This document shows positions 11,875-36,995 of a stretch of 41,458 nt of DNA, piece after piece. The notes below the pieces were generated by a model. It saw only the letters and a program-made list of their open reading frames with translations, made no database searches and was not told the DNA's origin. The translations under genes and the position numbers were made by a program. The DNA is taken from NCBI GenBank assembly GCA_903922605.1, contig CAIXUG010000033.1, positions 1 through 41,458 on the forward strand, written 5' to 3'. Position 1 is the first letter of the stretch, and each line of letters starts with the position of its first letter. The DNA is from an uncultured Verrucomicrobiota bacterium. GTDB lineage: Bacteria > Verrucomicrobiota > Verrucomicrobiia > Limisphaerales > UBA9464.

Positions 11875-11984
11875 CTCCAACTAATTGCCGCCGGAGAGGA
11901 AAAGGTAACAGTCTTTTTCGCGTCGGGGCGGGCCATCTGTGCTGCCACTCAGCGGTCGCGTCGGCGTGCGTCTGGAAAATGATG

Positions 11985-20812: not shown

Positions 20813-22111
20813 ATGAACCAACCGGAGTTCGACGTGATCGTCATCGGTGGCGGGCCGGGCGGCAGTTGTGCCGCCGCGGTGCTCGCGCGAGCAGGTCGCA
20901 GGGTGTTGCTGCTGGAAAAGGAGCACTTTCCCCGGTTCCACATCGGCGAGTCGCTGCTGCCATACAACCTCGCCATCTTCGAGGAGATCGGCGTGATGCC
21001 GACCATCCAGGCCGCGGGCTTCGCCCCCAAATACGGCGCGCAGTTCCACCTCGGCAACGCCTCGAAAGAGCTGAAGTTCGTGTTCCGCGAGGGCTGTTTC
21101 ACGGAATACACCGAGGCCTTCCAGGTCGAGCGCTCGAAGTTAGACGACCTGCTGCTCCGCCACGCCACGAAATCCGGCGCCGACGTGCGCGAGGGCGTGA
21201 CCGTCGAGCGCACCACCGCCGACGCCGAGGGCGTGACGGTCGAGGCGCGCGATGAGGCGGGCGTGGCGGCGACCTATCGCGCCCGCTTTCTGGTAGACGC
21301 CTCGGGCCGGGGTAATTTCACGGGCAACCAGGAGGGCATCAAGGTGCCGAATGCAAAGCTGAAGAAGCTGGCGGTGTTCGGCCACTTCGAGAACGTCGGC
21401 CTCGATCCCGGCAAGCCGGCGGGAGACACCGTGATCGTGCGGCTGGACAAAAAATGGTTTTGGCTGATCCCGCTCCGGTTGGCGGACGCGCAGCAGCCCA
21501 GCAAAGTGAGCGTCGGGCTGGTAATGGACCGCGACGAACTCGCCGCCGCCAAGCGCCCCGCCGAACAGGTCTTCCAGCATTTCGTGGACAGCAATCCCTC
21601 GGTCGCCGCGCGGATGCGCAACGCAAAGCTGGTCTCGCCCATGCATGTGACGAGCGATTTCAGCTACCGCAACCGCACCTTCTGGTCGCCGCGCGTGGTG
21701 CGCGTGGGCGATGCGGCGGGGTTCATCGACCCGATTTTTTCCAGCGGCGTCTTCATCGCGATGTTCTCCGCGAAACTCGCTTCCGAGACCGTGCTGCAAC
21801 TGCTGGCCCAGGGCGGCGACGGCTCGGCGGTATTTCCGGCCTACGAGCGCCGTATCAACGCGGCCATGCGCATCTACTGGGAGATGGTGGAGAATTTCTA
21901 CACGACGCCCTTCATGGAGGTGCTCATGGAGCCGCGCCCCAAATGGGACATCGCGTCGGCCATCAATGCCATCCTTGCCGGCGAACTCGAAGGCGGCTGG
22001 CGGCTCCGGTGGCGGATGCGCGCCTTCTTCTGGCTGGTCAAGATCCAGGCGAAATATCCGTTCATGCCAAAGCTCGACTTTCCGCGGATCTCCGGCGGAT
22101 CGCTTTCGTGA
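20813..22111 (+). CDS. flavoprotein of the flavin-dependent halogenase type
   Basis: 432 residues. FAD-binding GGGPGGSCAAAVLARAG (~12-28) is followed by HIGESLLP (43-50). Lys73 in GFAPKYGAQF sits where FDHs have their catalytic lysine. WFWLIP at 215-220 fits the halogenase WxWxIP motif, and GDAAGFIDPIFSSGV matches the second FAD motif. It could halogenate an ACP-bound or phenolic substrate, or be a reductase/hydroxylase of the same fold, since the family includes non-halogenating members. It heads the cluster: the next gene (GTG at 22108) overlaps its stop. The start at 20813 is chosen because the glycine motif then begins at the usual distance. A 93-base gap separates it from the dehydrogenase upstream. 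Confidence 0.8.
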   Translation: MNQPEFDVIVIGGGPGGSCAAAVLARAGRRVLLLEKEHFPRFHIGESLLPYNLAIFEEIGVMPTIQAAGFAPKYGAQFHLGNASKELKFVFREGCFTEYTEAFQVERSKLDDLLLRHATKSGADVREGVTVERTTADAEGVTVEARDEAGVAATYRARFLVDASGRGNFTGNQEGIKVPNAKLKKLAVFGHFENVGLDPGKPAGDTVIVRLDKKWFWLIPLRLADAQQPSKVSVGLVMDRDELAAAKRPAEQVFQHFVDSNPSVAARMRNAKLVSPMHVTSDFSYRNRTFWSPRVVRVGDAAGFIDPIFSSGVFIAMFSAKLASETVLQLLAQGGDGSAVFPAYERRINAAMRIYWEMVENFYTTPFMEVLMEPRPKWDIASAINAILAGELEGGWRLRWRMRAFFWLVKIQAKYPFMPKLDFPRISGGSLS

Positions 22112-22608
22112 ACGCATCCGGTCAATCCCTTTCGGTCCGCAACGGTCGGCGACGTGTCATGGACGCGATGCTGCTCGTGCTGGCCGGCGGACTGGCTGGT
22201 TGCGCCGGACCGGAGCTTCCCCCGATCAATCTCGCCGCACCCGGCTGGACCGTCCAGGAAACCCAGGCCGTCTGGCGTCCCAAGCGCGAGGCGCCGGAGC
22301 TGATCGGCGAGCTGCTGGTGGCGACGCATCCCGACGGCTCGCGGTTGGTGCAGTTCAGCAAGCAGTCGCTGCCGCTCGTCACCGCGCAGGCCAATACCAA
22401 CGGCTGGAGCCTTTCCTCGCCGCTGCGGTCAGGACGCTTCGGGGGCACACACACGCCGACCGACCGCGTGCCGTGGTTCCAGCTGACGGAATTGCCACCC
22501 AAGAAAGCCCCGGTCTCGGCCCGCTGGCAGTTGAACACCGAAGCCAGCGGCACCTGGCGGCTGGCCAACGCGCGCACGGGAGAATCCGTCGAGGGCGTGG
22601 CCCCGTGA
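22108..22608 (+). CDS. lipoprotein, possibly LolB-like
   Basis: 166 residues. Starting at the GTG that overlaps the preceding stop (GTGA at 22108-22111), a hydrophobic segment leads to a lipobox (LLVLAGGLAGC), so the mature protein would be lipid-anchored. An ATG at 22159 would give a shorter leader. The mature part (GELLVATHPDGSRLVQFSKQ and LPLVTAQANTNGWSLS) has the beta-strand pattern seen in LolB/DUF3261-like proteins that sit beside MMPL exporters in aryl polyene clusters; this assignment is inference. With LolA-like and MMPL proteins next to it, a role in delivering the product lipid to the outer membrane is plausible. Confidence 0.6.
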   Translation: MNASGQSLSVRNGRRRVMDAMLLVLAGGLAGCAGPELPPINLAAPGWTVQETQAVWRPKREAPELIGELLVATHPDGSRLVQFSKQSLPLVTAQANTNGWSLSSPLRSGRFGGTHTPTDRVPWFQLTELPPKKAPVSARWQLNTEASGTWRLANARTGESVEGVAP

Positions 22609-22627
22609 GCCCGTCCCGCCTTACCGC

Positions 22628-25600
22628 ATGAACCGTCGCCGCTGGCTCTGGCTGCTGTGCGCGATCCCGCTCGTCGTGGGGCTCGCGCGCCTGCGCTTCG
22701 ACGCCGACATTTTCAACCTGCTGCCCGGCGATCTTCCCGCCGTGCGCGGCCTGCAGCTCCAGCAGCAGAACTTTTCCAATGCGCGCGAACTCCTCGTCAC
22801 GCTGAACGCGACGGATGCCGAGGTGGCTAGCAATGGGGCCCGCGCCATTGCGACCCATCTCGCGACGCGCACCAACCTGGTCCGTTCCGCCCGCTGGCAG
22901 CCGCCCTGGCTCGAACAGCCCGCCGACGCGGCGGAAAATCTCGCCTGGCTCTGGTTGCAACAGCCGCCCGCCGAGTTCGCTACGCTGGTAACGAAGCTCA
23001 CCACCACCAACCTCCCCACGGTGCTTGCCGCCGCGCGAGAAACTCTCGCGACGTCGCTGGACCCGCAGGAGCTGGCCCGGCGCAGCTACGATCCCTTCGG
23101 TCTCACGCAATTGCCGATCGCCAGCGCCGGTGCGGCCGGCTTTGACCTGGGTTCGGGCATCTTCGCCAGCGCCGACGGCACGTACCGAATCGTCTTCGTC
23201 GAACCGGCCCGCGAGCGGATGAACTACCGCGAGGCCGGCGAATGGTTCGCCGCCGTACGTGCCGAGGTGGCGCTTGCTGTGGCGGCCTTGCCGAGCGGCA
23301 CGCCGGACCTGCATGTCGCCTTCACTGGCGGCCCGGCCTTTCTCTCCGAGATTTCCGGCGGCATGGAGAGCGACCTGAAGAGTTCCGTCTTCACCACCGT
23401 GCTCGTCATCGCCGGCCTGTTCTGGCTCGCGCACCGGAGCTGGCGTCCGCTCGGCTGGCTGATCGTCGCCCTGCTGCTCACACTGGCTCTCACGTTGGCT
23501 CTGGGCGGGCTCGTATTCGGCACGCTCAACGTCGTGAGCCTCGGCTTCGCCGCCGTGCTGCTCGGGCTCACGGTCGATTACGGCCTGGTAAGCTATCAGG
23601 AATTCGTCGCCGCGCCGGACAAGACCCCGGCGGAAATCCGGCACGAGGTCGCCCCCGGCATCGGCTATTCCGCCGCGACCACCGCCGGCACGTTTCTGCT
23701 GCTCGGTTTTGCCGGCCTTCCTGGGCTCGCCCAGCTCGGCGTGCTGACCGCCCTTGGCCTGCTCGTCGGCGCAGGTGTCATGCTGTTCGTGTTCCTGCCG
23801 CTGGTCGCCCGGCGGCGTCCGGTGCGCCCGGCGGGAGCGGCTCACAAGCCGGTAAAAAAGTTTCCGACCGGCATTTTTCCCACCGTCGCGGTGGTGATCG
23901 CGGTCATTACCGTCCTCGTCGGACGCGGCACGCCCCACATCACGGCCAGCGCCGATCCGCTGCGGCCCCGCAGCAGTCCGGCCTACAATGCGATGGATGA
24001 GCTGAAGCTCCGCCTCGGCCGGACCAATGAGCCGATGTGGGCGGTGTTCTCCGGGCACGACGCCATCGCCGTCGCGCAGCAGTTGGAGACGGCCAACTCG
24101 GTGCTCACGGCGGCGAAGGCGCGGGGCGAAATCAGCTCCTTTGACCTGCCGGCCGGCTTCTGGCCACGGCCGGATTATGCGGCCATCAATTTGCCGGCCG
24201 CCCGCGCGCTGGGCATCCGGGCGGAGGATTTTCGGACACAGGCGGAGGCCGCCGGGTTCACTGCCGATTCGCTGGGGCTCACCCGTGGCATTTTGACGGC
24301 GTGGGGCGGAGCTTCGGCAAACCAGTCCTTTCTCTGGCCGACCAACTCGACCGCGAGATGGCTGGTCTCGCAATTCGCCGCGCGGGATGCCGCCGGCGGC
24401 TGGCTGGCCCTGGGCGTGATCCAGCCCACGGGCACTTCGGACCGCACCCACGCCGAACTCGCGGCTTCGCTGCCGGCGGGCGTGCTGGTGACCAGCTGGG
24501 AATCGCTGGGCGCCTCGCTGCTCGGCCATGTCGCGCGCCGGGTCAGCCTGCTGATGGTGCTGATCGCGTTCGTCCTGGTCGGATTTCTCTGGCTGGCCTT
24601 CCGCCGCTGGCGCGAGGTGGCCCTGAGTTTCGTCGCGCTCGCGCTGAGTTTTTCCCTGCTGCTCGCGCTGATGACGCTGATTGGCTGGTCGTGGAACCTG
24701 CTGAGCCTGGTCGCGCTGCCACTGCTGCTCGGCTCTTCCGTTGATTCCACGATCCACGTGCAGCTCGCGCTGCGCCGGCATGGGTCGGATCTGCGTGCGC
24801 TCTGGGGCACGACCGGCAAGGCGCTGCTGCTGTGCGCCGGCGCCAACATCGCCGGCTTCGGCTCGCTCGCGTGGAGCAGCAATCTGGGCCTCGCGAGCCT
24901 TGATCTCGTGTGCGCGGTCGGTGTCGGCTGCGTGTTCGTGGTGTGCGTCGGCCTGCTGCCGGCGTGGTGGCAGAGGGTGGGTGGTGGCCGCGCGGCGGCA
25001 CCGGCGCCCCAGCAGGCATCATCCCTGTATGGGGCGCGCCTCTGGCAGGCAGGCCTGAAACTGGGCCGGATTTTGCCGCCGGCCATCTCGTACGCCTTCG
25101 CGCGGATGGGGGTCACCGCCTATGTGCTCGCCCGTCCGGCACGGTTTGCGGTCGTGGTGGAGAACCTCCTACCAGTGCTCGGCGATGAAGCCTCGGCCCG
25201 CCAGGCCGCCCGACGCAACTTCGCCGAATTCGCGCGTAAGCTCGTGGACCTGTGGCGCTACGAGGCCGGCGGCCTGTCCGCCGAAGCGGTACGGACCGGA
25301 TCCGGCTGGGAACACTTCGCCGCGGCTGTCGGCTCCGGTTCCGGTGTTCTGCTGGTCACCCCGCACCTCGGTAACTGGGAATTCGGCGCGCCGCTGCTGG
25401 CGCGACTGGGCGTGCGCCCGCTGGTGCTCACGGCGCCGGAACCGGGCGGACTCACCGAGGCGCGCGTGGCCGCCCGCGCGCGGCTGGGCGTGGACACGCT
25501 GGTCGTGGGCAGTGATCCCTTTGCCTTCGTCGAGGTCATCAAACGGTTGCAGGCCGGCGGCGTGGTGGCGCTGCTGATGGATCGCCCACCCGCGCCGACG

Positions 25601-25909
25601 CGTGTGGAGGTGGAACTTTTTGGCCGGCCCTTCGCCGCCAGCATCGCGGCGGCCGAGCTGGCGCGGGCCTCGGGTTGCATCGTGCTGCCGGTGTGCATCC
25701 TGCGGGATGCACAGGGCTACCACGCTGATGCGCTGCCGCCGGTGCCCTACGACCGCGCCGCCCTCGGTGACCGCGCCGCGCGCATCGAGTTCCCCGGGCG
25801 CATCCTGCGTGTGTTCGAGCCGGTGATCCGGCAGCATCCCGACCAATGGTTTCACTTTGTGCCGGTGTGGCCGGAGAACGATGGTCCTTCCGCATTGGCA
25901 AAGCCATGA
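22628..25909 (+). CDS. MMPL-family exporter fused to LpxL/HtrB-type acyltransferase
   Basis: 1,093 residues. Residues 1-~790 form an RND/MMPL exporter: N-terminal helix, periplasmic loop (SGGMESDLKSSVFTTVLVIA), a bundle of membrane helices (~255-400), a second periplasmic loop and a second bundle (~635-790; SSVDSTIHVQLALRRHG). Residues ~815-1093 are a lysophospholipid/lauroyl acyltransferase domain with the HxxxxE motif in PHLGNWEFG (His913, Glu918) and conserved PVCILRDAQGYH; this is the LpxL/HtrB fold that acylates glycolipids at the inner membrane. In typical aryl polyene clusters these are two separate genes. Its stop overlaps a downstream ATG (ATGA at 25906-25909). It may acylate the polyene or its anchor and then export it. 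Confidence 0.88.
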   Translation: MNRRRWLWLLCAIPLVVGLARLRFDADIFNLLPGDLPAVRGLQLQQQNFSNARELLVTLNATDAEVASNGARAIATHLATRTNLVRSARWQPPWLEQPADAAENLAWLWLQQPPAEFATLVTKLTTTNLPTVLAAARETLATSLDPQELARRSYDPFGLTQLPIASAGAAGFDLGSGIFASADGTYRIVFVEPARERMNYREAGEWFAAVRAEVALAVAALPSGTPDLHVAFTGGPAFLSEISGGMESDLKSSVFTTVLVIAGLFWLAHRSWRPLGWLIVALLLTLALTLALGGLVFGTLNVVSLGFAAVLLGLTVDYGLVSYQEFVAAPDKTPAEIRHEVAPGIGYSAATTAGTFLLLGFAGLPGLAQLGVLTALGLLVGAGVMLFVFLPLVARRRPVRPAGAAHKPVKKFPTGIFPTVAVVIAVITVLVGRGTPHITASADPLRPRSSPAYNAMDELKLRLGRTNEPMWAVFSGHDAIAVAQQLETANSVLTAAKARGEISSFDLPAGFWPRPDYAAINLPAARALGIRAEDFRTQAEAAGFTADSLGLTRGILTAWGGASANQSFLWPTNSTARWLVSQFAARDAAGGWLALGVIQPTGTSDRTHAELAASLPAGVLVTSWESLGASLLGHVARRVSLLMVLIAFVLVGFLWLAFRRWREVALSFVALALSFSLLLALMTLIGWSWNLLSLVALPLLLGSSVDSTIHVQLALRRHGSDLRALWGTTGKALLLCAGANIAGFGSLAWSSNLGLASLDLVCAVGVGCVFVVCVGLLPAWWQRVGGGRAAAPAPQQASSLYGARLWQAGLKLGRILPPAISYAFARMGVTAYVLARPARFAVVVENLLPVLGDEASARQAARRNFAEFARKLVDLWRYEAGGLSAEAVRTGSGWEHFAAAVGSGSGVLLVTPHLGNWEFGAPLLARLGVRPLVLTAPEPGGLTEARVAARARLGVDTLVVGSDPFAFVEVIKRLQAGGVVALLMDRPPAPTRVEVELFGRPFAASIAAAELARASGCIVLPVCILRDAQGYHADALPPVPYDRAALGDRAARIEFPGRILRVFEPVIRQHPDQWFHFVPVWPENDGPSALAKP

Positions 25910-26019
25910 ATACGCAATATCGCCAGAATTTCCGCCCTCATGGCATCGAGGTGCTTTTGAAAACAGAGTGGCTTTCGAAACCCCGTAGTCGTGATGGGGC
26001 CGGTTGTGGGTTTGTTTGC

Positions 26020-26185
26020 TCCCTTCCCCCTCACCCCGGCCCTCTCCCTCAGGGAGAGGGAGAATCGTCGCCCGACTTTCGGCGAAAGACTGGCGCGGGA
26101 ATGGCCGGACGCGCACGCAGACAGCCAATCAGTCCGCCCGGCTGTCCCCTCTCCCTGAGGGAGAGGGTCAGGGTGAGGGGGGAGG
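26020..26185 (+). repeat. palindromic repeat element A, copy 1
   Basis: Starts with CCTTCCCCCTCACCCCGGCC and ends in GGGTGAGGGGGG, with two internal inner hairpins (CTCTCCCTCAGGGAGAG at 26042-26058; CTCTCCCTGAGGGAGAG near 26149-26165). The middle reads GGCGCGGGAATGGCCGGAC. The same element, inverted, lies at 37150-37320. It separates the MMPL gene from the recognisable part of the LolA-like gene and is translated open across its length. Confidence 0.8.
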
Positions 26186-26934
26186 CAGCTTGCGTCCGTA
26201 TTCGATCCCACCTCGCACAACGCTTCCCAAACGATCGCTCCTCTTTCCGGCCCCTGAATTTTTCGTTCCTGCTATTTTCGCTGTTGGTTCTGCTGGGTGC
26301 CACCGCCGCCCTGGCGGGACCGGAGGACGACGCCCTGCTCAACCGCTGGCTGGCGCGGCAGACTAACGTCACGTCCTGGTCCGCCGACTTCGTACAGACG
26401 CGCCATCTGAAGGCGCTGACGCAGCCGCTCACCACGCCGGGCCGTGTGTGGTTCGTCGCGCCGGACAAATTCCGCTGGGAACTCGGCGCGCCCGCGCAGT
26501 CCATCGCCCTGCGCGCCCAGGACGACCTGCTGGTGATCGCCCCCCGGCTCAAGCGCGCCGAGCGCTATTCGTTGGCCGACTTTGCCTCGGGACCGATGAA
26601 GGACGCGCTCGCACTGCTCGACACGGGCTTTCCGCGCGACGCGGCGGATTTCCATCGCCGCTTTGACCTCCTCGGCCTTGGGCGGACGAATGACACCTAC
26701 GCCTTCCGGCTCCAACCGCGCGCCGCGGCCGCGCGCAAGCTGCTGCCCGAGCTGACCGTCCTCGTCGGCACGAATGATTTCCGGTTGAGCGGCACCGAAC
26801 TGGTCTTCACTGACGGTTCGCGCCTGCGGAACGATTTTACAAATGCCAGCGAGAACCCCGCGATCGATCCGGCCCTCTTCACGCCGCCGATGGATGCGAC
26901 GTGGAAGGTGACCGAACCGCTGAAACCGAAATGA
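26173..26934 (+). CDS. LolA-like outer-membrane lipoprotein carrier
   Basis: About 253 residues if the GTG at 26173 is the start. A signal peptide (NFSFLLFSLLVLLGATAALA) precedes the LolA fold: SWSADFVQTRHLKALTQPLT, GRVWFVAPDKFRWELG, ALRAQDDLLVIAPRLKRAER and a C-terminal SGTELVFTDGSRLRNDF. Such proteins in aryl polyene clusters carry the lipid product across the periplasm. The open frame begins much further up (ATG 25906, overlapping the MMPL stop) and runs through repeat element A, but the resulting ~100-residue leader would bury the signal peptide. The real start is uncertain; the ATG at 26101 is another option. Its stop overlaps the next ATG (26931-26934). Confidence 0.8.
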   Translation: MRGEAACVRIRSHLAQRFPNDRSSFRPLNFSFLLFSLLVLLGATAALAGPEDDALLNRWLARQTNVTSWSADFVQTRHLKALTQPLTTPGRVWFVAPDKFRWELGAPAQSIALRAQDDLLVIAPRLKRAERYSLADFASGPMKDALALLDTGFPRDAADFHRRFDLLGLGRTNDTYAFRLQPRAAAARKLLPELTVLVGTNDFRLSGTELVFTDGSRLRNDFTNASENPAIDPALFTPPMDATWKVTEPLKPK

Positions 26935-27368
26935 CCGCCATGCCCGACCCCCTCGTCACCGCGGTCGCCTCGCTCCCGCACGGCCCAGAGTTCCGCTTCC
27001 TGGACCGGCTGCTGACGCTGGAGCCCGGCGTGAGCGGCACCGGCGAATACACGCTGCGCGGCGACGAGCCGTTTTTGCGCGGGCATTTCCCGGGCGAGCC
27101 GCTGCTGCCCGGCGTGCTGCTGGTGGAGGCGGCGGCCCAGCTCGCCGGCATCGTCGCCCAGAGCGATCCCGCCCACGCGCCGATGCCGGGGCTGAAGCTC
27201 ACGGCCATCCGCGCCGCGAAGATTCTCGGCACCGCGCGCCCGGAAGAAACCGTGACGCTGCACGCCCGCATCACGGCCCGCATGGGGAAGCTGGTCTCGG
27301 CCCAGGCTACCGCCAGCCTGCGCGGAACGCTGATCCTGCAATGCGAGGTAACGTTGGCGGGCGGATAA
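26931..27368 (+). CDS. 3-hydroxyacyl-ACP dehydratase, FabZ/ApeP-like hot-dog fold
   Basis: 145 residues. It dehydrates beta-hydroxyacyl-ACP intermediates to the trans-enoyl form, which in a polyene pathway builds the conjugated chain since no enoyl reductase follows. The hot-dog motif RGHFPGEPLLPGVLLVEAAA holds catalytic His52 and Glu66, and the rest (FLDRLLTLEPG at the start, CEVTLAGG at the end) fits the single-domain FabZ-like family. The ATG at 26931 overlaps the stop of the LolA-like gene, so translation is probably coupled. It is the last gene of the first plus-strand block. Only one dehydratase is visible in the cluster. Confidence 0.88.
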   Translation: MTAMPDPLVTAVASLPHGPEFRFLDRLLTLEPGVSGTGEYTLRGDEPFLRGHFPGEPLLPGVLLVEAAAQLAGIVAQSDPAHAPMPGLKLTAIRAAKILGTARPEETVTLHARITARMGKLVSAQATASLRGTLILQCEVTLAGG

Positions 27369-27387
27369 CAATCTGATCCGCCTGGGC

Positions 27388-27714
27388 TCAGTGGTGGGTG
27401 GCCCGCTTGAAGACGTAGTCGTCGGTGGTCATAGCGGTGAGTTCGAAGCCTTCGCGCGCCAGCGCGTTCATCGCGAGGCTCATGTAGAACGACCGCTCAT
27501 CGGCCTTCTCAGGCCGTTTGATACCGGCAAATTTCGGGCCGAGAATTTCCACCGTGCCATCAGGCCGGATGAGATGAGTGTTTTCTCGCCCGCCCCAGCG
27601 TAAGGTGGCATATTCCACTGTGCCGACCATTTCACTGGCCGCCGGCAGTTTCAGTTCGGCGAGGCCAATGAGCAGTCCGACGGCTAGGAGCAGATATAGG
27701 GTTTTAATTTTCAT
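27388..27714 (-). CDS. small exported protein, hypothetical
   Basis: 108 residues with a signal peptide or N-terminal membrane anchor (MKIKTLYLLLAVGLLIGLAE). The remaining ~80 residues are mixed (EMVGTVEYATLRWGGRENTH; SFYMSLAMNALAREGFELTA) and match no family I recognise. Its start overlaps the stop of the lipoprotein gene upstream (ATGA at 27711-27714), so the two are translated together. It is convergent with the dehydratase gene, leaving a 19-base gap. Position inside the pigment cluster suggests a linked envelope role, but nothing in the sequence proves it. Confidence 0.65.
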   Translation of the reverse strand: MKIKTLYLLLAVGLLIGLAELKLPAASEMVGTVEYATLRWGGRENTHLIRPDGTVEILGPKFAGIKRPEKADERSFYMSLAMNALAREGFELTAMTTDDYVFKRATHH

Positions 27715-28118
27715 CGGGGGATGGTGATTTCCAGTCCTTCGGACTTTTGGTTCAGATCAAAGTAAAGGCGTTTTGGAATTCGGTCCTCCTGGCCAAACAT
27801 GAACTGCTGGGCGCCATTCAGGAACGATTTTGTCTGCACGAACTGGCCTGGTTTGACGGGAAACGCCTTGAACACCGTATGGCCGTCACCGCCGCCATGA
27901 AACGTGCCGTCCCGGTCGCCCCAGATCGTGACCTTCAGTGGGCTTAGGCCGACATATTCTCCGTCCACCTCGATCCGTGCGCCCGGATCATTGGTTTCAA
28001 CCAACACCTCGAAAGGGACGGTCCCGGAAGGGTGCCCTTGCGGGGTGGAGGCGCATCCCGCAACGAGCAGCAAGGCGGCGAGAGTGGTCAGGGAGGAACG
28101 ACGGGCATGTTTCATCAT
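27711..28118 (-). CDS. lipoprotein with PEGA-like domain
   Basis: 135 residues. Signal peptide with lipobox ALLLVAGC (Cys near residue 22), then a PEGA-like beta module (LVETNDPGARIEVDGEYVGL, then SPLKVTIWGDRDG). PEGA modules are found in surface and envelope proteins and are thought to bind other proteins or wall components. The end (FGQEDRIPKRLYFDLNQKSE) is unremarkable. It overlaps the small exported protein by 4 bases and follows the AMP-ligase gene by 52 bases on the same strand. Its role in the cluster is unknown. Confidence 0.7.
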   Translation of the reverse strand: MMKHARRSSLTTLAALLLVAGCASTPQGHPSGTVPFEVLVETNDPGARIEVDGEYVGLSPLKVTIWGDRDGTFHGGGDGHTVFKAFPVKPGQFVQTKSFLNGAQQFMFGQEDRIPKRLYFDLNQKSEGLEITIPR

Positions 28119-28170
28119 GGAGGTGGTTGGATTGATTGCCGAAGTGTTATTACCCCCTTCCCGTGCGAAG

Positions 28171-29439: not shown

Positions 29440-29640
29440 TGCGCCGTGTGTTTGCCCGCCGATAGCGTTGTGAAGCAAGCCCAATGAGTTTTCCTGCGAA
29501 AATGGCCATGTTCGTCCTCGGAGCAGGCAGGACCGTCCGCGCGCTTGGGCTGGGCGCAGGGTGGGGCGAGAATCCCCGCGAGCCGCGGCGGCCTAGGCCC
29601 GGGGTGGCACGGCTCGCGGGGACGCTCGCCCCACCGAGGT
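29440..29640. promoter_or_regulatory. divergent region holding a palindromic repeat
   Basis: About 200 bases between the start of the minus-strand AMP-ligase gene and the recognisable part of the plus-strand lipoprotein gene, so it must carry outward promoters for at least one side. No clear -35/-10 pair was identified. Most of the right half is the repeat element B copy at 29561-29634. Confidence 0.4.
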
Positions 29641-30464
29641 TTTCTCCGACGGGGTTTCTTTGGTACCCAAGCATAGGTGGCCTTTGGCGGTGTTGGGGCT
29701 GGCTGCCGCTTGCCATGCTCTGGGTCGGCTGTGCATCGTCGCGGCCCGTGGTATTGGCCCCGCTCAGACATCCCGACGACACGCTGGGCTTCCGCAACGA
29801 GACGCTGTGGAGCTACTCGCGCGATCCGCAGACCGGTCGGCAGGTCCATGAGCGCCGCGAACCCCCGCCCGATTACACGCTGCGCTGCTTTGTGCTGGCG
29901 CGGGTCGTGAAGCAGTTCCACATCCACGCCCGCTTCGAACCCGCGGCCGCGCCGCTGGACACCGAAGAATACCGCCGGCGCTTCCGGCAGGTGCTCGCCC
30001 GCAGCACGCGCACCGCAAGCCCGGAGGCCGACCGGATCGTTTTTCCCGGCTTCGCCAACCTGCGGGCTTTCAGCGTCGCCCATGAGGCGATGATGCGGAC
30101 CGAGGCGGGCGGCGCGTGGCAGAGCTATTTCCAGCGCGGGCAGTGGCGGATGGTGCTCCCCTTCAGCCGGTCGGGGCAGGTGAAGGAAGCCGCGCGGCTA
30201 GCTGCCGCTGTCCGGGCCAACACCGCCCCGGCGCTGCATGTGTTCACCTTTCCCGCACTGACCGTGAACCACGCGGTGGTGCTCTTCGCCGTCACGGAGA
30301 CGCCGGCGCAATATGTGTTCGACGCCTACGATCCCAACGCGCCGGACGAGGTGCTGGTGGTCACGTTTGACCTTGAGCACCGCACGTTTTCGCTGCCGCC
30401 GACCGCCTATTTCGTCGGTGGTCCGGTGAACGCCTACGAGGTCTATTGCCGGCTATGGCGTTAA
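29484..30464 (+). CDS. lipoprotein, uncharacterised, start uncertain
   Basis: Up to 326 residues. The real N-terminus is unclear: an export signal (GWLPLAMLWVGCASS) with a lipobox-like WVGC lies at ~29690-29730, but the only in-frame ATGs are far upstream (29484, 29502, 29508) or immediately before the Cys (29715). Everything between is palindromic repeat element B read as protein. The mature part is conserved-looking (RNETLWSYSRDPQTGRQVHE; YTLRCFVLARVVKQFHIHAR) and ends in NHAVVLFAVTE, FDAYDPNAPDE and AYEVYCRLW. The His and YDPN near the end recall papain-fold proteins, but the catalytic Cys could not be placed; this is a weak hint only. It ends 12 bases inside the convergent membrane-protein gene. 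Confidence 0.6.
   Translation: MSFPAKMAMFVLGAGRTVRALGLGAGWGENPREPRRPRPGVARLAGTLAPPRFSPTGFLWYPSIGGLWRCWGWLPLAMLWVGCASSRPVVLAPLRHPDDTLGFRNETLWSYSRDPQTGRQVHERREPPPDYTLRCFVLARVVKQFHIHARFEPAAAPLDTEEYRRRFRQVLARSTRTASPEADRIVFPGFANLRAFSVAHEAMMRTEAGGAWQSYFQRGQWRMVLPFSRSGQVKEAARLAAAVRANTAPALHVFTFPALTVNHAVVLFAVTETPAQYVFDAYDPNAPDEVLVVTFDLEHRTFSLPPTAYFVGGPVNAYEVYCRLWR
29561..29634 (+). repeat. palindromic repeat element B, copy 1
   Basis: A 25-base inverted repeat (starting GTGGGGCGAGAATCCCCGCG, ending in the reverse complement, GCGGGGACGCTCGCCCCAC) with two mismatches flanks a GC-rich core (CGGCGGCCTAGGCCCGGGGT). A second copy is at 41182-41255. It lies in the 5' part of the lipoprotein open frame. Confidence 0.8.
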
Positions 30465-30848
30465 ATCCGCCCCGCGTTTGGCGGCGGATTTCGCGGCCCA
30501 GGCCTTTCGGAGGGTGCTGAGTCCGAGGAACAGCCAGCCGAAGAAGATGACCCCGGAAAGATTCACGCCCATCGAGTAGCCCAGCTTGTAGGTGCGGCCC
30601 TCGTTGATCTCCGCATAGATCGGCTGGTCGTGTCCGGCCAGCAGGCTGGGCCAGGCGACCGGCATCATCGCGCCATGCACCATGCCGCGAAAGAAACCGG
30701 GCGGGGTCGTGAGCTTCGCATCCGCGCGCATCGCCACGCCGCACAGCCACGCGAAGACGAACATCGACGTCGCCGTCAGGGCGGCCTGGACCAGCCAGTG
30801 CCGGCGGCGCGGCGGAGAAACAGGGGCAGCGGGGGTCATGTTGCTCAA
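30453..30848 (-). CDS. small membrane protein, hypothetical
   Basis: 131 residues with two clear membrane helices (LVQAALTATSMFVFAWLCGV, ~20-40, and GVNLSGVIFFGWLFLGLST, ~95-113) and a partly hydrophobic stretch between (FFRGMVHGAMMPVAWPSLLA). No family is recognised. It lies 89 bases after the GT2 gene on the same strand and probably shares its transcript, so a link to glycosyl transfer or anchoring is possible. The stop lies 12 bases inside the opposing lipoprotein gene. Confidence 0.65.
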   Translation of the reverse strand: MSNMTPAAPVSPPRRRHWLVQAALTATSMFVFAWLCGVAMRADAKLTTPPGFFRGMVHGAMMPVAWPSLLAGHDQPIYAEINEGRTYKLGYSMGVNLSGVIFFGWLFLGLSTLRKAWAAKSAAKRGADLTP

Positions 30849-30936
30849 GGGCGGACGATGTTTTTAAGCGGATGGGCCGCGCAAGCCGAATACGGCGACA
30901 ATGCAGTCTGCCGGCGGAGTTCTCCGTAACCGCGCT

Positions 30937-31701
30937 TCATCGCCCCGTTTCGCTTTGCTGGGGCAGGTCGGCCAACTCACGAACTCCAACGCTGGTCGTA
31001 CCCAGGGTGGGGGCCACCCAGACCGACTCTCCGCGCGTCTGCTGATACCAGCGCCACCAGCGCCAGTAGTCGCGCAGCGGGGAAATCTTGCTGCATTCAT
31101 TCGCGTAGCGGACCTGCACGGGCACAAAGGCGATGCGATGGCCGGCGCGGGCGAAGGCCACGCACATCTCCGACTCGATCTCGAAATGCCGCGTGCGCAA
31201 CGCGAGGGCGTTCAGCGTGGGTACGTGGGCGAGCCGGAAGCCGCACTGGGAATCGGGCAGATCCACGCCGGCGAGTTCGGAGATTCGGGCACTGAGCCAG
31301 CGGTTGGCCCAGCGACGCAACCAGGGCATCGCGCGGGAGCGGTCCATGCGGTTCCCGACGATGAGCTTCGCCGCACCTTTCTCCGCTTCGGCCAGAAGGC
31401 GGGGCACATCCTCGGTGGCATGTTGGCCGTCGCCATCCAGCATGAGCGTCCAGGTGAAGTCATTCTCACCGGCCCAACGCCAACCGGTTGCCAGCGCTGC
31501 GCCTTTGCCCTGCGGACTCTCGTGCCGGAGCACGGTCGCGCCGGCAGACGCAGCGGCGGAGGAGGTGCCGTCGGTTGAGCCGTCGTCCATGACCAGCACC
31601 GTGGGCAGATAATCCCGCACGCGGCACACCAGATCGCCAATGACCGCCCCCTCATTAAGGCAAGGTATGATGGCGCAGCAGTTGGAGGGCAGGGGCGGCA
31701 C
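30937..31701 (-). CDS. glycosyltransferase family 2
   Basis: 254 residues. Inverting-type GT-A fold: IIPCLNEG (11-18), DDGSTDGT (39-46, nucleotide binding), DGDGQH (89-94, the DxD metal site) and VGNRMDRSR. The C-terminal part (DSQCGFRLAHVPTLNALALR) with a conserved C-G-F-R is typical of dolichol-phosphate-mannose-synthase-like GT2 enzymes. It moves a sugar from a nucleotide donor to an acceptor, probably lipid-linked; in aryl polyene clusters such enzymes glycosylate the lipid product. It is divergent from the radical SAM gene, leaving a 108-base promoter region (31702-31809). Confidence 0.88.
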   Translation of the reverse strand: MPPLPSNCCAIIPCLNEGAVIGDLVCRVRDYLPTVLVMDDGSTDGTSSAAASAGATVLRHESPQGKGAALATGWRWAGENDFTWTLMLDGDGQHATEDVPRLLAEAEKGAAKLIVGNRMDRSRAMPWLRRWANRWLSARISELAGVDLPDSQCGFRLAHVPTLNALALRTRHFEIESEMCVAFARAGHRIAFVPVQVRYANECSKISPLRDYWRWWRWYQQTRGESVWVAPTLGTTSVGVRELADLPQQSETGR

Positions 31702-31809
31702 TCGCCATAGCGTCCCGAGTCTGCCTCACGAAGTCTATGGGGGTTTTACCCCAGAGCGAACTTGAGCTTTGAGCTTTGGGCTTTGGCCCCGGTTTCGCTA
31801 GGGTGGCGC
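31702..31809. promoter_or_regulatory. divergent promoter region
   Basis: 108 bases between the minus-strand GT2 gene and the plus-strand radical SAM gene. Both transcription units must start here. It includes a short direct repeat (GAGCTTTG at ~31765 and again soon after) that could be a regulatory site, but no sigma-70 promoter could be assigned by eye. Confidence 0.4.
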
Positions 31810-32831
31810 GTGATCGCAACGTGGTTTCCCACTGCCACCGACCTGGCCGCCACCGGCGCCGCGCAGGAACGGCTGCATGAACTGGCCGCCACCGCGACAC
31901 GCAACCGTTTCGGCCGCAGCGTGTTCGTCCGGGCGGTGGTCGAGGTGTCAAACTTCTGCCGCGAGAACTGCCACTACTGCGGCATGCGCCGGGACAACCG
32001 CAGCCTCGCCCGCTTCCGTGCCCGGCATGACGAGCTGGCCGAGCTGCTCGTGAACCATCGCCCGCCGAGCATCACCGACGTGAACATCCAGTCCGGCGAG
32101 GATCCGGTTGCCGCCCGGGAAGTCGTGCTGCCCCTCGTGCGGACCCTGCGCCAGGAGACCGATCTCGGCGTGAGCGTGTGTCTCGGCACCTTGGACGCGC
32201 GGCTCACCCGCGAACTGCAGGAGGCGGGCGCGACGTGCTACATCATCAAGTTCGAGCTGGCCGACCCGCAGCTTTACGACGAGCTCGAAGCGCCGGGAAC
32301 GCTCGCGGAGCGGACCGCCCACATCCGCTCCCTGGTGGCGACCGGCTGGCACGTCAGCTCGGGCTTCATCGCCGGGTTGCCGGGGCAGACGGTGGAATCA
32401 GCCCTGCAAAATTTCCGGTTGGCGGCAGATCTGCCGCTCAGCGGGTGCAGCGTCAGCCCGTTCGTGCCGGGGGATGAAACGCCACTGTCGGCCGCGAGGC
32501 CGGCCGCCCTGGATCCGACCCTGAACTGCATGGCAGCATTGCGGCTGATGCGGCCCGATTGGACCATCCCGGCGGTCAGTGCGCTGAATCTCGCCGGTCC
32601 CGACGGCGGCTACCGGCGCGGCCTCGCGACAGGGGCGAACCTCGTCACCATCAACCTCACCCCGACACAGTGCGTAACGACTACCTGCTCTACCGGCGCG
32701 ACCGTTTCATCATGAATGAGGAACGAATCCTGTCCGCAATCGAGGCCGAGGGGTTGGAGCCCTCCACCCAGAGTCTCGCCGACTTTTACCGGAACGCACG
32801 GTCCGTCATCGCCCGGGAGGTCGCGGCATGA
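31810..32831 (+). CDS. radical SAM enzyme, BioB/HydE-like, one frameshift
   Basis: About 340 residues once corrected. CRENCHYC (Cys50, 54, 57) binds the [4Fe-4S] cluster that cleaves SAM. The fold is that of biotin synthase and HydE (VNIQSGEDP; SGFIAGLPGQTVESALQNFR; the end NLVTINLTP, then NDYLLYRRDRFIMNEERI). The frame breaks at ~32664: translation from 31810 ends in a nonsense tail at 32715, while family-like sequence continues one frame over to 32831. One missing G in the CCCCG run would restore it. The corrected end overlaps the next gene by ATGA, which supports the repair. The GTG at 31810 is preferred to ATG 31762. The substrate is unknown; a role in starter formation is inferred from context. 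Confidence 0.82.
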
Positions 32832-33598
32832 AAGCACCCGAACCGCAGGCCCCGCACACGGTGCTGACCGATTTCTACACCACCCCGGAGGCGCGCGCCG
32901 GTTTTGTGAACCGGCTGTTCGACAACACCGCCCGGCACTATGACCGCGTGAGCAGCCTGTTTTCCTTCGGCAGCGACAAGCGCTACCGCAAGATGGCGCT
33001 GCAGGCCGCCGGCCTTCATCCCGGCATGAAACTGCTCGACGTGGCTACCGGCACGGGGCTGGTCCTGCAGGCGGCGCTGGACATGGGTATGCCTGCGGCA
33101 GACCTCATCGGCATCGACCCGAGTGCAGGCATGCTGGAGGAAAACCGCCGGCTGCACGCGGTGAAGCTGATCCAAGGCGTGGGTGAGCACCTGCCATTTC
33201 CGGACGCCTCGTTTGATTTCATCTCGATGGGCTACGCGCTGCGGCACGTGGCGGATCTCGGCGTACTCTTTGCCGAATTCCGGCGCGTGCTGAAGCCCGG
33301 GGGACGGATCCTGATCCTCGAAATTTCCCGGCCGAAGTCGCGCCTAGCGTTCTTCCTGATGAAGATTTACATGGGCAAACTGGTGCCCTTCTTCACAGGC
33401 ATCTTCACCGGCCAACGCGAGGTCGCGCGGCTGATGGAATACTACTGGGCCACCATCGCCGAATGCGTGCCGCCCGACACCATTCTGGCCGCGATCCGCG
33501 CGGCGGGCTTTCAGGACGTGCGGCGGAAAATCACCGGCGGCATCCTGAGTGATTACACGGCGGTGAACGGGGCGGCGCCGACCGCCCCGGTCAGGTAA
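32828..33598 (+). CDS. SAM-dependent methyltransferase, UbiE/MenG-like
   Basis: 256 residues. Motif I LLDVATGTG (69-77) binds SAM, with GIDPSAGMLEENRR, PFPDASFDFISMGYALRHV and LKPGGRILILEISRP (the last being the post-II/III region of the UbiE family). The N-terminus (RLFDNTARHYDRVSSLFSFG) matches the UbiE signature in which the enzyme binds a prenylated or aromatic acceptor. In this cluster it more likely methylates the aromatic head or polyene chain than a quinone. Its ATG overlaps the (corrected) radical SAM stop, so the two are coupled. Confidence 0.85.
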   Translation: MKAPEPQAPHTVLTDFYTTPEARAGFVNRLFDNTARHYDRVSSLFSFGSDKRYRKMALQAAGLHPGMKLLDVATGTGLVLQAALDMGMPAADLIGIDPSAGMLEENRRLHAVKLIQGVGEHLPFPDASFDFISMGYALRHVADLGVLFAEFRRVLKPGGRILILEISRPKSRLAFFLMKIYMGKLVPFFTGIFTGQREVARLMEYYWATIAECVPPDTILAAIRAAGFQDVRRKITGGILSDYTAVNGAAPTAPVR

Positions 33599-33622
33599 TT
33601 TTCGTGCTGACACCCTGCGGTC

Positions 33623-34867
33623 ATGCTCTTTCCGCTCCCACCTCGGCCGGCTGTTTCCCCGCGCGTCGTTGTCACGGGGGTCGGGATCGTGACGCCGCTG
33701 GGGCTGGGCTGGTCAGTCAATGCAGAGGGCTTTCGCACGGGACGGCGTGCGTTCCGGCCGGTCAGTGTTTTTGACGCCTCCCGTCAGCGCACCCAAGTGG
33801 CGGGCGAGGTGGATCTGCCGGCGGCGTTACCCGCGACAGGCCTCGGGTTCCGCCAGCAGCTCCGCCTCGAACGCGCCGCCCGCATGCTGCTGCTCGCGGC
33901 GCATGAGGCGTGGACCCAGGCCGGTTGGACCGCGACGGACGATCCCCTCCCGCTGGTGCTCGGCACGACCAGCGGCGGCATGTCGCTGGAGCAGGACTAT
34001 TATCGCCAGGCCATCAGCACACGTCCGAGCGACCGCCAGCAAATCACGCGCCTCACCCACTATCAGGTCCAGCGGCAGGCGCTCAACCTGGCGGATGCCT
34101 TCGGCTTTCACGGCCCGGTGACGATCATTGCCAACGCCTGCGCCTCCGGGGCGAACGCCCTCGGCCAGGCCTTTGAGCTGGTCCGCTCGGGTCGGGCCAC
34201 GCGTGCATTTGCGGGCGGCTATGACGGGCTGAGCCAGCTTGTGTTTGCGGGCTTCGATTCCCTGCAGGCGCTGTCGCCGACGACGTGCCGGCCCTTTGAC
34301 GCGAAACGCGACGGCCTCGCGCTCGGGGAAGGCGCGGCGATGCTGTGCCTGGAAACGCTCGCCTCGGCGCAGGCGCGGGGCGCGGAAATCCTGGGCGAAA
34401 TCACCGGCTACGGCACCGCGACCGATGTCCACCACCTGACCCAACCCCAACCACAGGGCGACGCCGCGCTGGCCGCGATGACGGCGGCCTGTGCCAACGC
34501 CCGCGTGATCCCGGCGGATATCGGCTACGTGAACGCGCACGGCACCGGCACACCCGCCAACGACGGCGCGGAAGCCCAGGCCATCACGCGCTGGGCCGGG
34601 GCACGGGCGACGACGCTGCCGGTCAGCTCGACCAAGGCGGGCATCGGCCATCTGCTCGGGGCCGCCGGCGCGGTCGAGGCGGTTGCGTGTCTCATGGCAC
34701 TGCGGGGCCAATGGCTGCCGCCGCAGCTTCACCTAGAGACGCCTGATCCGGCCTGCAGCTTTCCGCTCGTGCGCGTACCGCAATCCGCCAGCTTCGAGTA
34801 CGCGCTGACCAACTCGTTCGGCTTTGGCGGGGCCAATGCGAGCCTCGTGCTCCGGAGGTTCGCATGA
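33623..34867 (+). CDS. beta-ketoacyl-ACP synthase (active KS subunit)
   Basis: 414 residues, a full FabF/KAS II-type ketosynthase. The catalytic triad is intact: Cys173 in NACASGAN, His306 in VNAHGTGTP and His343 (with Lys338) in KAGIGHLLGAAG. The N-terminal VVVTGVGIVTPLGLG and C-terminal NSFGFGGANASLVL are conserved family ends. It condenses malonyl-ACP with the growing chain. The next gene starts inside its stop (ATGA at 34864-34867) and codes for a partner without the active-site Cys, so this is the catalytic half of a KS-alpha/KS-beta pair. Confidence 0.92.
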   Translation: MLFPLPPRPAVSPRVVVTGVGIVTPLGLGWSVNAEGFRTGRRAFRPVSVFDASRQRTQVAGEVDLPAALPATGLGFRQQLRLERAARMLLLAAHEAWTQAGWTATDDPLPLVLGTTSGGMSLEQDYYRQAISTRPSDRQQITRLTHYQVQRQALNLADAFGFHGPVTIIANACASGANALGQAFELVRSGRATRAFAGGYDGLSQLVFAGFDSLQALSPTTCRPFDAKRDGLALGEGAAMLCLETLASAQARGAEILGEITGYGTATDVHHLTQPQPQGDAALAAMTAACANARVIPADIGYVNAHGTGTPANDGAEAQAITRWAGARATTLPVSSTKAGIGHLLGAAGAVEAVACLMALRGQWLPPQLHLETPDPACSFPLVRVPQSASFEYALTNSFGFGGANASLVLRRFA

Positions 34868-35886
34868 GCCGCGTTTTTCTCCATGGCTGGGGCGCGGTTT
34901 CGCCAGCGGGCTGGGGCGTGGAAGCGCTGCATCAGGCATTGCTGGAGGGTACGCCGCTGCCCGTGCACCCACTAGTCCGGCCCGGTCGCGCCCAACCGCT
35001 TCCGGTTCGTCGCGTGCCGGCCTTCTCGCCGCGTCCCGCTTTCCTCGCCCATCCCCGGCTGCGACGGACGAGCCCGATCACCCACTTTGCCGTCGCGGCC
35101 GCGATCGAGGCCCTCGGCAGCGACGCGGCACGGGTCGCAACCGGTGAATTGCGGCTGGGCATCATCTTCTGCGCCTTTGCCGGCTGCGTGAGCTATTCGC
35201 GGCGCTTTTACGATGAGACACTGCGTGATCCGGCGACGGCGAGCCCGCTGGTGTTTCCCGAGACGGTCTTCAACGCGCCCGCGTCGCACCTGGCGGCTTA
35301 CTTCGGCAGCACGGCGGTGAATTACACGCTGGTCGGCGACCAGGGTGAGTTTGTGAAAGCGCTCGCGCTCGCCGCCGACTGGCTGCTCACCCGCCGGGTC
35401 AATGGCTGCCTCGTCGTCGGGTCCGAAGAGTCGGACTGGCTGTCCGCCGATGCCCTGCGGTTGGTGGCGCCGTCCATCATCACCGCCGAAGGCGCGGGCG
35501 CGGTCTATTTGCGGAGCGATCCGGGTCCGGTCGAACTGGTCGCCGTCACCGAGCCGCAACTGTTCACCCAGAACCGGGGTCCGCGGGAGGCCCTCCGTCA
35601 GACGCGGGCGCAACTGGACGGCGTACTTGGTGCGGACTTCCTGCTCGTGACCAGTGAGCACGATTCGCAGCTCGTTCCTGATCCGTTGGCAACGTCGGAC
35701 TGGCTGCACCGGGCGAAGCAACGGATCACGCCGGCACCGGTCCTGGGAGAAGGCTTGGGCGCCGGCAGCGCGTGGCAGGCGGTAGCGGCGAGCGTCGCGC
35801 TGCGGGACGGTGAAGCGGCTGAGGCGGTCATCGAGGTAGTCGGCAGCAACGAGCAGGCGGTGGCGGCGGTGCTCCGGCGGGCGTAA
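34864..35886 (+). CDS. chain-length-factor-like ketosynthase (KS-beta)
   Basis: 340 residues, a shortened ketosynthase fold (HGWGAVSPAGWGVEALHQAL; LGIIFCAFAGCVSYSRRFYD; PSIITAEGAGAVYL). At the nucleophile site the partner's NACASGANAL aligns with GDQGEFVKAL, placing Gln160 where the Cys should be. No HGTGT or GHxxGAAG histidine motif is present. Cys-to-Gln is the mark of chain-length factors in type II PKS and aryl polyene systems. It should pair with the preceding KS to set product length. Coupled by a 4-base overlap to that gene; the KR follows about 47 bases later. Confidence 0.85.
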   Translation: MSRVFLHGWGAVSPAGWGVEALHQALLEGTPLPVHPLVRPGRAQPLPVRRVPAFSPRPAFLAHPRLRRTSPITHFAVAAAIEALGSDAARVATGELRLGIIFCAFAGCVSYSRRFYDETLRDPATASPLVFPETVFNAPASHLAAYFGSTAVNYTLVGDQGEFVKALALAADWLLTRRVNGCLVVGSEESDWLSADALRLVAPSIITAEGAGAVYLRSDPGPVELVAVTEPQLFTQNRGPREALRQTRAQLDGVLGADFLLVTSEHDSQLVPDPLATSDWLHRAKQRITPAPVLGEGLGAGSAWQAVAASVALRDGEAAEAVIEVVGSNEQAVAAVLRRA

Positions 35887-35933
35887 GCATTTCAACCTTC
35901 CTTCGCGGGCTGCGGGCCGTCATTCGTGGGGAC

Positions 35934-36659
35934 GTGCGTGTCTTCTTGATCACGGGTGCCAACGGCGGCCTGGGCCGGGCCATCGCCCGCGCCTTTCTGG
36001 CCGAGGCGGAAACCAACCAGGTGTGGCTGGGCGTGCGGTCGCAACGCGCAGACGCCGAGGCGCTCGCCGCCGAATTCCCGGGCCGCGCCCACTTGGTGAC
36101 GCTAGACGTGACCGATCGTTCTGCCTGGGATGCCACCGTGACGACCATCCGCGAAGCCCACGGACGGCTCGACGTGCTCGTGAACAACGCCGGACGCCAT
36201 GAGGATTCGCTGCTCGCCACGATGCCGCCCACCGCCTGGTCCGGTGTGCTCGCAGCCAATCTGGACGCGGTGTTTCACGGCTGCCAGGCCGTGCTCCCGA
36301 CGATGATCGGCCAGCGCGCCGGCCGGATCGTGAACGTCGCCTCGATCAGCGCCCTGCTGGCCCCGGCTGGACAGGCGAATTACGCCGCCGCCAAGGCCGG
36401 AGTGGTCGCACTCACGCAATCTCTGGCCAAGGAAGTTGCCCGCATCGGCATCACCGTGAACGCCTTGTGCCCCGGCTACATCGAGACCGAGGCGCTGGCC
36501 GGCATGGCTCCCGAACGACGGACCGCCGCGCTGGCACAGGTGCCGATGCGCCGGTTCGGGCGCGCCGAGGAGGTCGCTGCCGCCGTGCGCTTTCTGGCGA
36601 GCGCCGAGGCCGCCTATATCACCGGCGCCGTGCTGAAGATCGACGGCGGCATTCTCTGA
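35934..36659 (+). CDS. 3-oxoacyl-ACP reductase, FabG-like SDR
   Basis: 241 residues. Rossmann motif TGANGGLG (7-14), NNAG (84-87), and the catalytic Ser137-Tyr150-Lys154 (NVASIS, QANYAAAKAG). It reduces the beta-keto group on ACP using NADPH. The C-terminus (AAYITGAVLKIDGGIL) is the usual FabG end. The GTG at 35934 starts the family-like N-terminus directly (MRVFLITGANGG). It sits between the KS pair and the ACP, all on the plus strand. Confidence 0.92.
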   Translation: MRVFLITGANGGLGRAIARAFLAEAETNQVWLGVRSQRADAEALAAEFPGRAHLVTLDVTDRSAWDATVTTIREAHGRLDVLVNNAGRHEDSLLATMPPTAWSGVLAANLDAVFHGCQAVLPTMIGQRAGRIVNVASISALLAPAGQANYAAAKAGVVALTQSLAKEVARIGITVNALCPGYIETEALAGMAPERRTAALAQVPMRRFGRAEEVAAAVRFLASAEAAYITGAVLKIDGGIL

Positions 36660-36722
36660 AGGCAGTCACTCGTTTCGGTTGTCGCGCGTCCGAATCCTCC
36701 GCATGTTGGGGCAACGACTCCG

Positions 36723-36995
36723 ATGAACAGTGAACCCCTCCGTCCCGAACTGCTGGCCGAGCTGAAGGCCTTGCTGGTGGAAACCCTGATGCTACAGACC
36801 CCGGCGGCCGAGATCGCCGACGACCAGCCGCTCTTCGGCCCCGGGGGCCTGGGGCTGGACTCCGTGGACGCACTGCAACTGGTGGTCGCTCTCGACAAGA
36901 ACTACGGCCTCAAACTGACCGACGCCGAAGCCGCCAAGGGCGTGCTGCAAAGCGTCGCCGCCATGGCCGCCGCCGTGGCGAAGAAATCGGCCTGA
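36723..36995 (+). CDS. acyl carrier protein
   Basis: 90 residues, four-helix ACP fold. The phosphopantetheine site is GLDSVDALQL with Ser47. The flanking sequence (DDQPLFGPGGLGLDS; LDKNYGLKLTDAE) is of the kind found in aryl polyene and type II PKS clusters. It would carry the starter and growing polyene chain for the KS pair, reductase and dehydratase. It is the last gene of the cluster and the only ACP visible. No phosphopantetheinyl transferase is in the window. Confidence 0.92.
   Translation: MNSEPLRPELLAELKALLVETLMLQTPAAEIADDQPLFGPGGLGLDSVDALQLVVALDKNYGLKLTDAEAAKGVLQSVAAMAAAVAKKSA

Follow-up and report, generated by a model that had tools for sequence, protein, structure and literature searches.

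Aryl polyene (APE) clusters, arcuflavin clusters and so-called ladderane loci are the described systems with which the locus studied here is best compared. In Escherichia coli, the APE locus encodes a ketosynthase (KS), a dead KS partner, a ketoreductase (KR), a dehydratase (DH), acyl carrier protein (ACP) and an acyl-ACP ligase together with a glycosyltransferase and acyltransferase (ApeJ), LolA, an RND exporter, a lipoprotein and a methyltransferase. The arcuflavin clusters, e.g., that of Azoarcus sp. BH72, are described as containing a halogenase, a methyltransferase, an exporter, LolA, an acyltransferase, an AMP ligase, an ACP and a glycosyl transferase, in addition to resorcinol genes and a chorismatase of the XanB2 type that provides 3-/4-hydroxybenzoate; a radical S-adenosylmethionine (SAM) gene is not named in the portion of the gene list shown (PMC3949708). 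The proposed ladderane loci, as far as the cited part of the description goes, combine KS paralogues devoid of the active-site Cys, radical SAM enzymes, a glycosyltransferase, a phenylacetyl-CoA ligase and phytoene desaturase-like enzymes; a Rhodopirellula KS paralogue carries Asp at the Cys site, and the methyltransferase of the Kuenenia and Desulfotalea loci was placed in a tree with UbiE/MenG (PMC2649909). Surveys have labelled verrucomicrobial clusters either way: passages from two of them report a good representation of ladderane-type clusters among soil Verrucomicrobia (PMC7298704) and an APE cluster in a cultured member (PMC9865893). Here we analyze positions 20813-36995 of a 41,458-nucleotide stretch of contig CAIXUG010000033.1 (hereafter the window) from the 5.3 Mb genome of an uncultured Verrucomicrobiota bacterium of the order Limisphaerales (90 contigs, completeness 95.84%). 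This stretch contains seventeen genes in five strand blocks (+ - + - +), for which the best reading is a variant APE-like polyene-lipid pathway belonging to a common, apparently uncharacterised family.

The core of the locus is formed by KS and a chain-length-factor-like protein (CLF). The Cys, His and His of the KS triad are kept in 74, 74 and 73 of 75 aligned sequences, respectively. In the CLF, an Asp aligns with the catalytic Cys of the KS, as it does in 77 of 77 sequences, and neither of its His columns holds a His in the aligned KS-CLF pair of the window. The locus thus has the intact KS triad and catalytically dead KS partner expected of an APE cluster. Catalytic motifs are likewise intact in ACP (Ser in 59/59 aligned sequences), KR (YxxxK in 55/55), DH and the flavin enzyme. 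With bit scores of 52 for ApeE and 30 for AcpP, the ACP is closest to the APE carrier protein; its best NCBIfam model, PRK09184 (52.5 bits, below the cut-off of 70), is the sole NCBIfam family of E. coli ApeE at E<=1e-6, where it scores 90.8. A separate enoyl reductase was not seen among the cluster genes in Pfam and NCBIfam scans; the KR matches PF13561, a Pfam family named enoyl reductase, yet is FabG-like (41% identity to FabG, 36% to ApeQ).

For comparison with E. coli, 19 proteins of the Sakai locus were used, with letters assigned by gene order from the CFT073 table (PMC8253772). With tblastn (E<=0.01), ten of them gave a match in the window, namely ApeE, F, H, I, J, M, N, O, Q and R. 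As ApeE and ApeF share the single ACP as target, ApeO and ApeR the single KS, and the marginal ApeN match (E 0.007) lies inside the MMPL gene and is probably due to chance, seven window genes are matched in this way. The acyl ligase resembles ApeH (22% over 325 aa, E 4e-8), the exporter ApeM (25% over 500 aa) and the GT2 protein ApeJ (34% over 223 aa, E 4e-28), whose acyltransferase part (residues 252-449) is matched by the exporter tail on profile level. For ApeA, B, C, D, G, K, L, P and AcpT no tblastn match was found in the window; the LolA gene matches ApeL by profile (E 5e-11). Homologues of ApeH, ApeQ, ApeI, ApeE, ApeJ, ApeM and, by profile only, ApeL are therefore present, and the APE family plan recognized in an initial annotation of this DNA is borne out by homology. 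The locus differs from its E. coli counterpart in having one ACP, one DH and an acyltransferase fused to the exporter, in lacking matches to the thioesterase, ApeG, ApeC, the second dehydratase ApeP and the E. coli methyltransferase, and in the addition of a halogenase-like enzyme, a HydE-like radical SAM enzyme, a papain-like lipoprotein and a small membrane protein. The initial annotation had already listed a single ACP and a single dehydratase and neither thioesterase, ammonia lyase nor phosphopantetheinyl transferase; all of this holds for the cluster genes scanned, with ApeK and AcpT as the respective queries for the thioesterase and the transferase. Two genes of the phosphopantetheinyl transferase family reside elsewhere in the source genome. 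Loss of apeK lowered pigment only in part according to the cited section of PMC8253772, so that the E. coli-type thioesterase does not clearly define APE clusters.

The KS-CLF core is common in the order, CLF matches (E below 1e-20) occurring in 58 of 146 genomes including the source genome. A scan of named genomes with CLF yielded 331 loci, the best 80 of which were kept; 42 of these have at least 9.9 kb of 5' flank, and the 10 kb flank limit cuts off far genes of the relatives' loci. Most of the 80 are titled Verrucomicrobiota, including three Akkermansia labels and one Haloferula, and the others comprise seven plain "bacterium" titles and one metagenome-assembled genome each of Betaproteobacteria and Proteobacteria. 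The run DH (+), ligase (-), papain-like protein (+), membrane protein (-), GT2 (-), KS (+) and CLF (+) recurs in nine of these 80 loci and in seven loci of another set of 35, corresponding to 11 distinct other contigs as five are common to both sets. Comparison of synteny across Verrucomicrobiota, as suggested in the initial annotation, thus revealed the same order and strands in relatives; the alternating blocks are real and constitute an inherited layout, and neither the gene set nor the scattering over strands, both initially regarded as unusual, is peculiar to this genome. Among the 42 loci with full flank, KS is present in 42, ACP in 35, KR in 27, GT2 in 22, the ligase in 21, the small membrane protein in 20, the HydE-like gene in 20, the papain-like protein in 17, MMPL in 12 and LolA and DH in 11 each. 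Genes for B12-type radical SAM proteins were found in 14 and CrtI-like genes in nine of the 80 loci, names that are based on Pfam matches of two members of the former and one of the latter. Within the stretches examined, HydE-like and CrtI-like genes never occur together and HydE-like and B12-type genes do so in five loci. At least two B12-type genes stand in tandem by KS-CLF in L103, L104, L127, L131, L133, L136 and L147, an arrangement reminiscent of the proposed ladderane loci. In L111, L116, L118, L120, L137, L138 and L145, all devoid of a HydE-like gene, the CrtI-like flavoprotein lies near KS-CLF and adjoins a large exported protein, which is phosphodiesterase-like at a score slightly below the Pfam cut-off in L120. 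The locus of Haloferula sp. BvORR071 (L146) has the KS-CLF pair only, other cluster genes being unmatched within its stretch.

The radical SAM protein has HydE as its best NCBIfam model (164.6 bits, below the curated cut-off of 254.6), and its nearest solved chains are HydE. The CxxxCxxC motif is invariant in the window protein and 30 relatives. In comparison with the nearest relative (L068), a shift of one base truncates the frame near its end; beyond the shift it is intact as far as the stop common to L068, which indicates that either the assembly is wrong here or the mutation is very recent. Matches at E<=1e-20 occur in 54 of 146 genomes of the order, with a close homologue in 46 and distant ones only in eight. 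Distant rows (E 1e-21 to 1e-43; nine rows, eight genomes without a closer one) as well as one second CLF piece of G145 were dropped before co-occurrence was counted. The HydE-like gene is then present in 40 of 58 CLF-positive genomes vs. six of 88 others (Fisher p 1e-15, uncorrected for kinship), and 18 CLF genomes are without a close homologue. In 22 genomes it is located 2.1-7.9 kb from CLF; second copies located on other contigs account for another five rows. Among the 80 loci of the named-genome scan, 30 carry the gene. Its initial description as an unusual addition is borne out in part: the gene is conserved and without match in the E. coli APE cluster. The set to which it belongs recurs in relatives. 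Plasmid matches of the radical SAM query comprise 11 records, mostly annotated as HydE or as Bradyrhizobium radical SAM genes, and the one plasmid neighbourhood inspected contains no polyene genes. Among the open-licence literature hits listed, none was seen to report a cluster of this kind with a HydE-like radical SAM gene. The enzyme is a candidate for a radical SAM step in polyene-lipid synthesis.

Nearest solved chains for the flavin enzyme are ChlB4, the halogenase 3e1t, the FADH2-dependent halogenase 5buk and PltA. WxWxIP, the Lys of GFxxKxG and DPxFS[SA]G are kept in 13 of 13 aligned sequences, including that of the window. The WxWxIP motif and the catalytic Lys are marks of flavin-dependent halogenases, and the enzyme probably halogenates the product. 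The window-type gene occurs in 12 of the 80 loci; in relatives a second, distinct halogenase-like gene (13/80 loci) replaces or accompanies it. The UbiE-like methyltransferase is found in six of 80 loci; when it was compared with solved structures, no row was named as anammox, which carries no weight either way. The halogenase, too, had been considered unusual at first, an assessment that does not stand as the cited part of PMC3949708 lists a halogenase and a methyltransferase for arcuflavin clusters. In L035 (8287-10816), a PaaK-like ligase adjoins a patatin-like protein, both judged by eye, and the pair sits between the radical SAM and the second halogenase-like gene.

Homology, catalytic motifs and conserved linkage suggest with moderate confidence that the locus specifies an APE-like type II polyketide pathway making an outer-membrane polyene lipid. 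The AMP ligase would load a starter acid onto ACP, KS and its dead partner CLF would add malonyl units, and KR and DH would leave one double bond per round; as the cluster genes showed no separate enoyl reductase, the chain would remain a conjugated polyene. The UbiE-like enzyme may then methylate and the flavin enzyme probably halogenate this polyene. Its attachment to an anchor, either a sugar or a lipid, would be the task of GT2 and of the exporter's acyltransferase tail, and MMPL, LolA and the small lipoprotein would carry the polyene lipid to the outer membrane. A putative role of the HydE-like enzyme is to make or remodel the starter or head group. A radical SAM reaction as the source of the starter would be a bold proposal. 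Going further, it could be proposed that the HydE-like enzyme supplies the starter or builds the head group in place of the chorismate and tyrosine routes and that, in addition, the family bridges APE and so-called ladderane clusters by swapping HydE-like, B12-type and CrtI-like modules on one KS-CLF core; we regard this combined proposal as speculative and rather improbable.

A number of observations weigh against the APE-like reading. UbiC (control matched in E. coli), an Rv2949c-like lyase (control matched in three genomes) and an aromatic ammonia lyase (control matched in five genomes) were not found in the whole source genome, leaving an aryl starter without known source and the label "aryl" not established; in the search for a XanB2-type chorismatase (PF21168) the control matched nowhere. 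ApeC, the E. coli CLF by role, has no match in the window. The KS scores 211 bits vs. E. coli FabF and 188 vs. the APE enzyme, the KR 186 vs. FabG and 135 vs. the APE enzyme. The HydE-like gene and CLF lie on different contigs in 17 genomes, part of which is explained by broken assemblies, and 336 kb apart in one, and 14 of the 42 loci with full flank have no HydE-like, B12-type or CrtI-like gene at all. Halogenase-like folds can serve other reactions. Finally, the deep nodes of the KS trees do not separate ApeO, ApeR and FabF groupings of the cluster KS family. The initial annotation had named phylogenies of the KS/CLF pair as a way of refuting its reading. The cluster KS family forms a clade of its own (100/100) and the genome's own FabF groups with E. 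coli FabF. In the tree without CLFs, grouping with ApeO fits as well as the free tree (approximately unbiased test, p-AU 0.53), the best tree joins the family with ApeR at weak support (58/69), and the test does not formally reject a FabF grouping (p-AU 0.055). A weak position beside ApeO and a Streptomyces KS in the tree with CLFs was not kept when these were left out.

The FabF and FabG similarities would fit a fatty-acid or lipid A-type pathway modified so as to supply an envelope lipid with a special acyl chain other than a polyene; the LpxL-type acyltransferase and LolA are envelope parts, and of the E. coli proteins compared, FabF and FabG are indeed the nearest to KS and KR, respectively. 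However, ketoacyl-synthase N-domain matches over threshold number two genome-wide, i.e., the cluster KS and a FabF-like protein on C62, the one that groups with E. coli FabF, and a dead KS partner and a halogenase-like enzyme are not usual fatty-acid parts. A separate enoyl reductase was not seen in the cluster either, and such a pathway appears quite unlikely. A pathway of the ladderane or polyunsaturated-hydrocarbon type, in which radical SAM and related enzymes act on an ACP-bound polyene to give a hydrocarbon or ring-bearing lipid, also appears unlikely, even though the locus shares a Cys-less KS paralogue (with Asp at the Cys site, as in that of Rhodopirellula), a radical SAM enzyme, a ligase, a glycosyltransferase and a methyltransferase comparable to UbiE with the proposed loci described above, B12-type radical SAM and CrtI-like genes occur among its relatives, and clusters so labelled have been reported from soil Verrucomicrobia in good number. 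The B12-type and CrtI-like proteins of the relatives have no match in the window, and the exporter, LolA and the counterparts of ApeJ speak for lipid export of the APE type; the likeness is one by description only, and the cited part of PMC2649909 states no experiment linking those genes to the ladder structure. Very improbable is a chance placement of the HydE of a hydrogenase system. The HydE model and solved chains mentioned would agree with it, but the score is below the HydE cut-off, the gene is linked to CLF in many genomes, and no [FeFe]-hydrogenase was found in the source genome (control matched in Thermotoga maritima). The APE-like pathway accordingly remains our preferred reading, and the KS-CLF family offers a testable explanation for "ladderane" and "aryl polyene" calls in Verrucomicrobia. 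To our knowledge, no product is known for the verrucomicrobial family, and none appeared among the open-licence literature hits listed.

Genes were named by Pfam and NCBIfam profile scans of the window proteins (Table 1). Those listed in the initial annotation are present where it had put them and most were named alike, with two amendments: the acyltransferase domain exists as the C-terminal part of the MMPL protein and not as a gene of its own, and the frame of the lipoprotein between flavoprotein and MMPL was corrected. The predicted papain-like lipoprotein and the small membrane protein are conserved genes beyond that list.

Table 1. Genes of the verrucomicrobial KS-CLF locus, with positions in the window.
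Predicted product	Position	Strand	Basis
Flavin-dependent halogenase-like enzyme	20813..22111	+	Trp_halogenase PF04820, E 1.5e-32
Small lipoprotein preceding MMPL	22159..22608	+	lipobox LAGC; no Pfam family
MMPL/RND exporter fused to LpxL-type acyltransferase	22628..25909	+	PF03176, PF03279
LolA-like periplasmic carrier	26266..26934	+	PF03548, E 1.2e-13 (on longer frame 25846-26934)
FabZ-type dehydratase (DH)	26934..27368	+	PF07977; ApeI match E 1.6e-8
Small exported protein	27388..27714	-	N-terminus signal-like by eye; no Pfam family
Small PEGA-domain lipoprotein	27711..28118	-	PF08308, 22.4 bits vs. cut-off 20.8
AMP-forming acyl ligase, proposed starter loading	28171..29484	-	PF00501/PF13193
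Predicted papain-like lipoprotein, putative Cys enzyme	29484..30464	+	start codon probably lies further inside the frame
Small membrane protein (by eye)	30453..30848	-	no Pfam family
GT2 glycosyltransferase resembling ApeJ N-terminal half	30937..31701	-	PF00535
HydE/PylB-like radical SAM enzyme, frame shifted near end	31762..32715	+	HydE model, 164.6 bits
UbiE-like methyltransferase	32828..33598	+	PF01209, E 1.8e-32
Ketosynthase (KS), C-H-H triad	33623..34867	+	PF00109/PF02801
Chain-length-factor-like (CLF) dead ketosynthase	34864..35886	+	fabF model, E 9e-10
Ketoreductase (KR)	35934..36659	+	PF13561/PF00106
Acyl carrier protein (ACP)	36723..36995	+	PF00550

The position of the small lipoprotein before MMPL is conserved, homologues being present in nine of 35 and three of 80 loci, the stretches of the latter mostly ending before the gene. 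Its predicted model is all-beta and of low confidence, and profile comparison with ApeN and ApeA gave no match. Homologues of the small exported protein and of the PEGA-domain lipoprotein each occur in three of 35 loci. In the papain-like protein, Cys, His, Asp and Asn are invariant in 21 sequences. Foldseek returned no significant match for its predicted model (predicted local distance difference test score, pLDDT, 90); a second structural comparison gave mostly papain-like rows with Z 5.6-7.9, which may reflect a common arrangement only. A possible periplasmic role of the protein is cleavage or transfer at an acyl or peptide bond. The small membrane protein has 17 invariant columns in the window sequence and 24 relatives. 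Outside the cluster, at 10405-11880 of the window, a single frame holds Sigma-70 factor regions and a DUF3738 domain and is adjoined by a serine beta-lactamase-family protein at 9013-10389.

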